51,613 bases of DNA, from assembly GCA_027023805.1 (NCBI GenBank), contig JALVUF010000007.1:1-51613 (forward strand), read 5' to 3'. Position 1 is the first letter of the stretch, and every line of letters begins with the position of its first letter. Source of the DNA: Helicobacteraceae bacterium (GTDB taxonomy: Bacteria > Campylobacterota > Campylobacteria > Campylobacterales > Sulfurimonadaceae). The translations under genes were made by a program, and so were the position numbers. Shown piece after piece: positions 18,969 to 51,613 of the stretch. The notes under the pieces were generated by a model. The model had not been told where the DNA came from. It made no database searches and saw only the letters and a program-made list of their open reading frames with translations.

Positions 18969-19030
18969 TCTTAAATCCTAATAGTGAAGTCGAAATAATA
19001 CCAATCTCAGCTAAAAGGATGAATGTAAAA

Positions 19031-19125
19031 TAAAAGATAAGTTATTAGCCGCAAGGCAGAGAATTGCAGGAGCTACAAGTAGCTTCAAAGTTCTCTAACA
19101 CAGTCGGATGATGACTTATCTTTTA
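19031..19125 (+). repeat. Hairpin module A of the palindromic element (95 nt)
   Basis: The base stem is a perfect 12-nt inverted repeat (TAAAAGATAAGT, 19031-19042, with ACTTATCTTTTA, 19114-19125). A middle stem AGAGAA/TTCTCT and an apical stem GGAGCTAC-AA-GTAGCTTC follow. Loop sequences CAAGGC, TTGCA and TAACAC separate the stems and recur in the other modules. Confidence 0.8.
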
Positions 19126-19134
19126 CCCAAAGGG

Positions 19135-19228
19135 CAGACATATTGCACCAGATTACTTCGTTGAAAGTTCTTGAAGCTACTAGTAGCTCCTGCAAACATT
19201 CGCCTTGTACTCTAGTACAATATGTCTG
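19135..19228 (-). repeat. Hairpin module B of the palindromic element (94 nt, inverted)
   Basis: Read on the minus strand it has the same plan as module A. The base stem is CAGACATATTG (19135-19145, 19218-19228), the middle stem GAATGTT/AACTTTC with one mismatch, and the apical stem GGAGCTAC-TA-GTAGCTTC. Base and middle stems differ in sequence from module A but remain complementary. Confidence 0.8.
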
Positions 19229-19255
19229 TTTTACATTCATTCTTTTAGTTGGGAT

Positions 19256-19264
19256 TGGTATAAT
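19256..19264 (+). promoter_or_regulatory. Outward extended -10 at the right edge of the palindromic element
   Basis: TGGTATAAT is a perfect match to the extended -10 pattern TGnTATAAT and straddles the outer border of the terminal inverted repeat, facing nadA. The left terminus has the mirror version TGGTATTAT facing plsY. No -35 is evident at normal spacing. Confidence 0.45.
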
Positions 19265-51461: not shown

Positions 51462-51481
51462 ATATCAATCCTTTTTTTATA

Positions 51482-51613
51482 ATACAAAACCCAGCTAAAG
51501 AGTAGGAATTTAAACGAACATATTGCGGCAATGGCACAAGGCAAAAGAGTGCAGACGCTACTGGTAGCTTCAAACTCTTTTAACGCGGTAATATGTTGCA
51601 ATATGTTCGCCCT
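51482..51613. mobile_element. Left half of a second palindromic element (copy 2, cut by the window edge)
   Basis: Positions 51482-51514 align with the 33-nt terminal repeat of copy 1 (22 of 33 identical). A 95-nt hairpin module C follows (51515-51609; base stem CGAACATATTGC with GCAATATGTTCG). Then CCCT begins, matching the CCC of the central CCCAAAGGG. The visible 132 nt equals the length of the left half of copy 1 exactly, so the window ends at the element's centre. Confidence 0.78.
51515..51609 (+). repeat. Hairpin module C of the palindromic element (95 nt)
   Basis: It has the same three-tier plan as modules A and B: base stem of 12 perfect pairs, middle stem AAAAGAGT/ACTCTTTT (8 perfect pairs), and apical GCTAC-TG-GTAGC. 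The loops ACAAGGC, TGCAG and TAACGCGGT match the other modules in place and sequence. Confidence 0.8.

Follow-up and report, generated by a model that had tools for sequence, protein, structure and literature searches.

The 262-bp element between plsY and nadA is best explained as a non-autonomous, protein-less DNA transposon of the MITE type that carries a conserved folded cassette, presumably as cargo, and we put the probability of this reading at about 0.75. It is short, has no transposase gene, and shows terminal inverted repeats (TIRs), a target duplication, dispersed copies and empty sites. By these features the element is a MITE, and it differs from known MITEs in a structured interior which is shared between elements. 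A MITE is usually recognised by its ends and its interior regarded as junk, whereas here the ends vary and the folded interior is kept.

Architecture and insertion of the element

The window (the whole stretch of 51,613 nucleotides analysed here) is contig C7 of a 1.64-Mb source genome in 73 contigs. The non-coding element occupies positions 18999-19260 in the intergenic gap between the divergent genes plsY and nadA, and is composed in order of an inverted end, hairpin module A, the centre CCCAAAGGG, an inverted hairpin module B and a second inverted end. Repeat search located the left TIR TACCAATCTCAGCTAAAAGGATGAATGTAAAA at 18999-19030 and the right one at 19229-19260, within inverted-repeat arms of 36 nt (18995-19030 / 19229-19264) that are 89% complementary. 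Module A (95 nt, 19031-19125, plus strand) is closed by an outer stem at 19031-19051 / 19105-19125 and was matched by the covariance model; its 52-nt core (19052-19103, plus strand) reads CAAGGC-N8-GCAGG-apical hairpin-CAA-N8-AACACAG. Module B (94 nt, 19135-19228, minus strand), with repeat arms at 19135-19156 / 19207-19228, was detected by both repeat search and the covariance model, and its 52-nt core (19156-19207, minus strand) reads CAAGGC-N8-GCAGG-apical hairpin-CAA-N8-AACGAAG. The two modules are inverted copies of each other (19052-19088 / 19171-19207, 84%). The centre (19126-19134) could form a 3-bp mini-hairpin between them, and a similar CCCnnnGGG-like centre is present in most full elements. 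Folded as single-stranded DNA, the element reached -58.9 kcal/mol (z = -10.4), a stability equalled by none of 200 shuffles, and the opposite strand gave a z of -9.1.

The plan of 33-95-9-94-33 nucleotides proposed in an earlier, sequence-only reading proved correct to the base by repeat search. That reading also placed AATA on both sides of the element; a direct repeat indeed exists, but AATA overlaps the TAA duplication. Because TAA is directly repeated at 18996-18998 and 19261-19263, the true ends lie one base further inward, at 18999 and 19260. Its statement that no protein is encoded holds, as the only open reading frame of at least 60 aa overlapping the element is a 71-aa frame with a TTG start and no context.

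The plsY-nadA gap measures 360 bp with the element versus 94-109 bp in seven aligned relatives of the same genus or family. When the flanks were joined without the element they aligned to the gap of these relatives, and the conserved TGATATAAT before nadA was left intact by the insertion. The comparison of orthologous gaps suggested earlier thus revealed empty sites in all seven aligned relatives. In genome G015 the same gap (L314, 1213-1498) is 285 bp long and apparently contains some other insertion.

Further copies were also found, as the sequence-only reading had proposed to check in the source genome and its relatives. Four full copies were detected by blastn in the source genome, namely the one in the window, one on C10 (96% identity) and those on C43 and C61 (76%). 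The covariance model identified 13 modules there, corresponding to six complete elements and one cut at a contig end. A second copy in the window, of subfamily 2 (51479-51613, plus strand, blastn and covariance model), reaches past the end of the contig; since the contig terminates within this copy, the element repeats probably broke the assembly. When up to 3 mismatches were allowed, a pattern of the terminal 20 nt matched 25 places in the source genome and its reversed control none, many of the extra end matches being truncated or collapsed copies. At C65:10376 and C70:19129, palindromes of about 40 bp join an end directly to an inverted end, and may be copies that have collapsed or the footprints of deletions. 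Two Paenibacillaceae loci (L351 and L361) contain remnants of this kind. No match to the element was obtained in the plasmid and phage collections.

Identical 3-bp sequences (TAA or TTA, that is TWA) flanked 16 of the 20 elements with TACCA-type ends, to which this count was restricted since the source table also lists types where TACC is not the terminus. The inverted state, which would be expected if the flanking bases belonged to the repeat, occurred in only 1 of the 20. For the end types AGTACC, AGTGCC, AGTAATAGG and TTACCG, a 2-bp TA duplication fits. A TA duplication, as in IS630/Tc1-mariner MITEs, would thus fit some TIR types, and the 3-bp TWA fits the type found in the window. Taken together, the element inserts as a unit with a TA-containing target duplication, and is multi-copy and patchy.

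A conserved folded interior behind variable ends

What the sequence-only reading had missed is that the family conserves its interior, whereas its termini vary. In each module, the two strands of the outer stem enclose CAAGGC, an 8-nt arm, GCAGG, a small apical hairpin, CAA, the partner of the arm and AACGMAG, in this order. The spacing of the internal-loop motifs is fixed, with a core of 52-54 nt among the modules matched. The same interior stands behind unrelated ends in the elements on C26 and C9 of the source genome and in one congener; despite the unrelated TIRs, the cores are 83-84% identical to those on C26 and C9.

The stems vary in sequence and remain paired. Among 14 modules, double changes were observed at 29 of 34 pairs. 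In an alignment of 60 distinct modules, 94.9% of the cells were paired compared with 60.9% after shuffling, pairing fell to 38-51% when the partners were slid by 1-3 columns, and double-change cells numbered 724 versus 214 in shuffles. The loop motifs are conserved and the arms are not, with G27 present in 60 of 60 modules and AAC in 97-98%. As this alignment had been fitted to the structure, a second set with free arms, selected by the pattern search, was used, in which 99 distinct arm pairs were 90% paired compared with 51% when shuffled (658 Watson-Crick and 53 G.T of 792). Since the loop motifs are conserved and the stems change yet stay paired, a folded single strand appears to be the form in which the cassette is maintained.

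The inner helix showed a strand preference. On the motif strand of the inner helix, G.T outnumbered A.C by 47 to 6 in the 60 distinct modules, while the outer stem gave 18 versus 13 and no clear strand preference. The cross-phylum set gave G.T 53 versus A.C 16, against a shuffled expectation of 116 versus 84. Because the G.T excess is present in modules of either orientation, modules A and B of one element prefer opposite strands. Each strand would thus offer one correct hairpin, which would leave the element indifferent to its own orientation. The G.T excess could in part be mutational, through deamination of the exposed strand.

We weighed an ordinary MITE, that is, a deleted IS with a palindromic interior as a by-product, in which covariation results from template-switch (quasipalindrome) correction and not from selection. 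Mobility, TIRs and target duplications are all accounted for in this way. Covariation in a DNA palindrome can come from template-switch correction without selection, and outer stems lacking a clear strand preference are what correction would yield, so this process could explain the covariation of the outer stems. It does not explain the strongly biased inner helix or loop motifs that are conserved while the arms are not. A core of constant length, one interior common to different TIRs and phyla, and a hairpin missing from both IS5-type partners described below speak against it as well, and we regard this explanation as unlikely.

Conserved loops, covarying stems and a G.U preference would likewise be expected of a gene for a structured non-coding RNA that serves the host and is carried on transposons by chance. 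However, as the strand preferences of the two modules are opposite, a single transcript does not fold both of them in the sense orientation. Moreover, the family is patchily present with many decayed copies, and no Rfam match was obtained among the loci scanned. Such a gene is hence quite improbable.

Returning to the transposon with a folded cassette, the two hairpins are inverted, so whichever strand turns single would display one correctly oriented hairpin. The single strand might arise by transcription, being then the transcript itself, or during replication on the lagging strand. The hairpin may make an insertion tolerable to the host, the RNA hairpin being cut or insulated, and this might apply to the copies inside 16S rRNA genes; alternatively, a factor that promotes mobilisation may bind to it. 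Judging from the sequence comparisons, the folded cargo most likely either lowers the harm to the host when transcribed or aids mobilisation. This makes it a testable proposal that some MITEs carry functional folded cargo.

Source of the transposase

Two lineages pointed to a likely enzyme. In Oscillibacter sp. 1-3 the MITE ends, TAGGCC(A/T)TGTTTGAAAAA, match those of a resident IS (L369, ends TAGGTCTTGTTTGAAAAATA / TAGGGCATGTTTGAAAAATA) with an IS5-family transposase (PF13340, 4.9e-29; NCBIfam transpos_IS5_3, 1.4e-36). Similarly, the ends TAGGGTCAGGATGCATTGATT / TAGGGTCAGGATTCATAACCA of a Sulfitobacter IS (L377) match the MITE ends TAGGGTCAGGAYCCATTAATT in the same genome. Its PF13340 value was 1.9e-20, and the NCBIfam score of 101.7 bits was below the cut-off of 110, as expected because the query was orfA alone. 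Both resident ISs are of about 836 bp and of the IS5 family, and the hairpin is absent from both. Because both lineages harbour an IS5-family IS with ends matching those of the elements beside it in the genome, transposition in trans is likely. By extension from this end match, an IS5-like transposase would mobilise the element of the window in trans, and an IS5-family-like DDE transposase encoded elsewhere would act on the terminal repeats.

The idea of a MITE moved in trans, raised in the sequence-only reading, is therefore borne out by the copies, empty sites, duplications and IS5-family end match in two lineages, but not by a partner IS in the source genome. Profile searches for PF01609, PF13340 and PF01797 all gave zero there, and neither the IS with matching ends nor the RAYT gene that had been proposed as a search target was found in that genome. 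For the end type of the window (TACCAAWCCCARCTAAA ends), a search of the source genome and 151 family genomes returned no partner IS. Among the 151, a single TIR pair was spaced like the ends of an IS, a 1.58-kb candidate in G503 (L405, 1145-2724), which turned out to be a complete MITE with its right end split by an ISAs1 insertion. The ISAs1-family IS in this copy is accompanied by a duplication of about 10 bp (..ATCTTTACT). A 12-copy PF01609 IS in G377 was also rejected as a partner, its ends (TAATTGAACCCTCTGAACAA) being unlike the element ends in that genome.

The other candidate of the sequence-only reading had been a REPIN- or BIME-like element, mobilised through its single-stranded DNA hairpins by a RAYT (Y1 HUH) transposase. 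The two inverted hairpins and the strand-specific inner pairing resemble it, and REP/BIME/REPIN repeats do occur as inverted hairpin pairs in intergenic DNA (PMC3733652). They are, however, RAYT-linked palindromes of 20-40 nt with GTAG/CGTC tags and no long TIR or duplication (PMC3733652), whereas our modules are hairpins of about 95 nt lying within long TIRs with target duplications, so the noted likeness to GTAG-headed REPs was not upheld. Furthermore, PF01797 is absent from the source genome and from G006, G007, G008, G010, G167 and G381, all of them element-bearing, yet it is present in the congener G001, where no element was detected. The RAYT reading is thus largely refuted and very improbable. 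A cis-regulator or terminator of plsY/nadA can hardly be maintained: the element does sit between divergent genes and upstream of the conserved TGATATAAT before nadA, but relatives keep TATAAT in a gap without the element, other copies lie in unrelated places, and since congeners lack it, a conserved role is already refuted.

Distribution and relation to known repeats

With covariance model R1, the module was detected in 22 of 60 relatives. Model R2, applied to 397 genomes of the phylum, detected it in 60 of them, patchily spread over 24 of 68 genera. The pattern CAAGGC-N8-GCAGG-N15..17-CAA-N8-AACGNAG was then searched in an 85,000-species collection and matched at least 118 stretches, compared with about 1.4 computed by chance. 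Hosts among the matches listed included Gammaproteobacteria, Chromobacterium, Roseibium, other alphaproteobacteria and Desulfuromonadales, as well as Oscillospiraceae, Ruminococcus, Paenibacillaceae and one Streptococcus suis. Judging by the named relatives in this search, the window probably belongs to a Sulfurimonas-like member of Campylobacterota. When 17 different pattern loci belonging to other phyla or classes were tested, model R2, trained solely on sequences of the phylum of the window, recovered 15 (E values 2e-16 to 2e-3), the two not recovered being L157 and L165. Many of the cross-phylum loci contain an entire element, bounded by TIRs at TA sites. The Oscillibacter and Paenibacillaceae members have a single hairpin in about 164 bp, and Oscillibacter sp. 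1-3 contains about 70 single-hairpin copies. The fold of the interior, with its conserved loops, is thus retained in Campylobacterota-like genomes, Pseudomonadota and Bacillota, and the covariance model provides a handle for annotating such copies.

Tentatively, and at slightly under even odds, these copies may form a cross-phylum superfamily of mobile hairpin cassettes which repeatedly acquired new terminal repeats and hence different transposases. The lasting replicating entity would then be the fold on a defined strand and not the ends, and it would also have given rise to rRNA intervening sequences.

In genome G010 (C14), two solo modules lie on either side of an MNT/HEPN-like gene pair (L093, ~1560-1660 and ~2440-2520). 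They share no common TIR, so the pair was rejected as cargo of one element, and the modules look like two separate copies.

The view that no described family has this exact plan holds as far as our searches reach: no Rfam family matched over any element in the window or the 28 element loci scanned, and the plan was not described in the literature searched, which excluded most subscription journals. IS5-family-derived MITEs are similarly short and non-coding, with TIRs and TA/CTAG-type targets, but their interiors are normally unrelated between ISs, whereas here one structured interior stands behind unrelated ends across phyla. We know of no Correia/NEMIS, ERIC or RUP repeat built on a plan of two hairpins whose internal loops are conserved. 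These repeats are also MITE-like, with TIRs, TA-type ends and stable stem-loops, and affect transcripts through RNase cleavage; however, each has been described from a few genera (PMC2229807).

BOX elements of Streptococcus pneumoniae and S. suis are modular, structured and non-autonomous, with TIRs and a target duplication, and BOX-type repeats have been reported in streptococci only, S. suis included (PMC3049150). They differ in being composed of boxA, boxB and boxC modules with tandem boxB. Model R2 matched a single-hairpin member in S. suis (L223, 3921-4015, 44.9 bits). The BOXA1R primer resembles the 3' side of this hairpin. From this one S. suis locus comes the lead that BOX repeats may be distant relatives of the element family, which may place them within a wider family.

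The family also enters rRNA genes. Genome G100 carries three identical copies inside 16S rRNA genes (L136-L138), some 200 nt downstream of the 5' end and in all three sampled 16S copies. In some Campylobacterota, this region of the 16S gene is known to contain intervening sequences. By position, the G100 insertions would be rRNA intervening sequences; such sequences are defined by position, whereas the G100 insert belongs to a mobile family, which offers an origin for some of them. In G100, the alignment to the Rfam SSU model spans the element.
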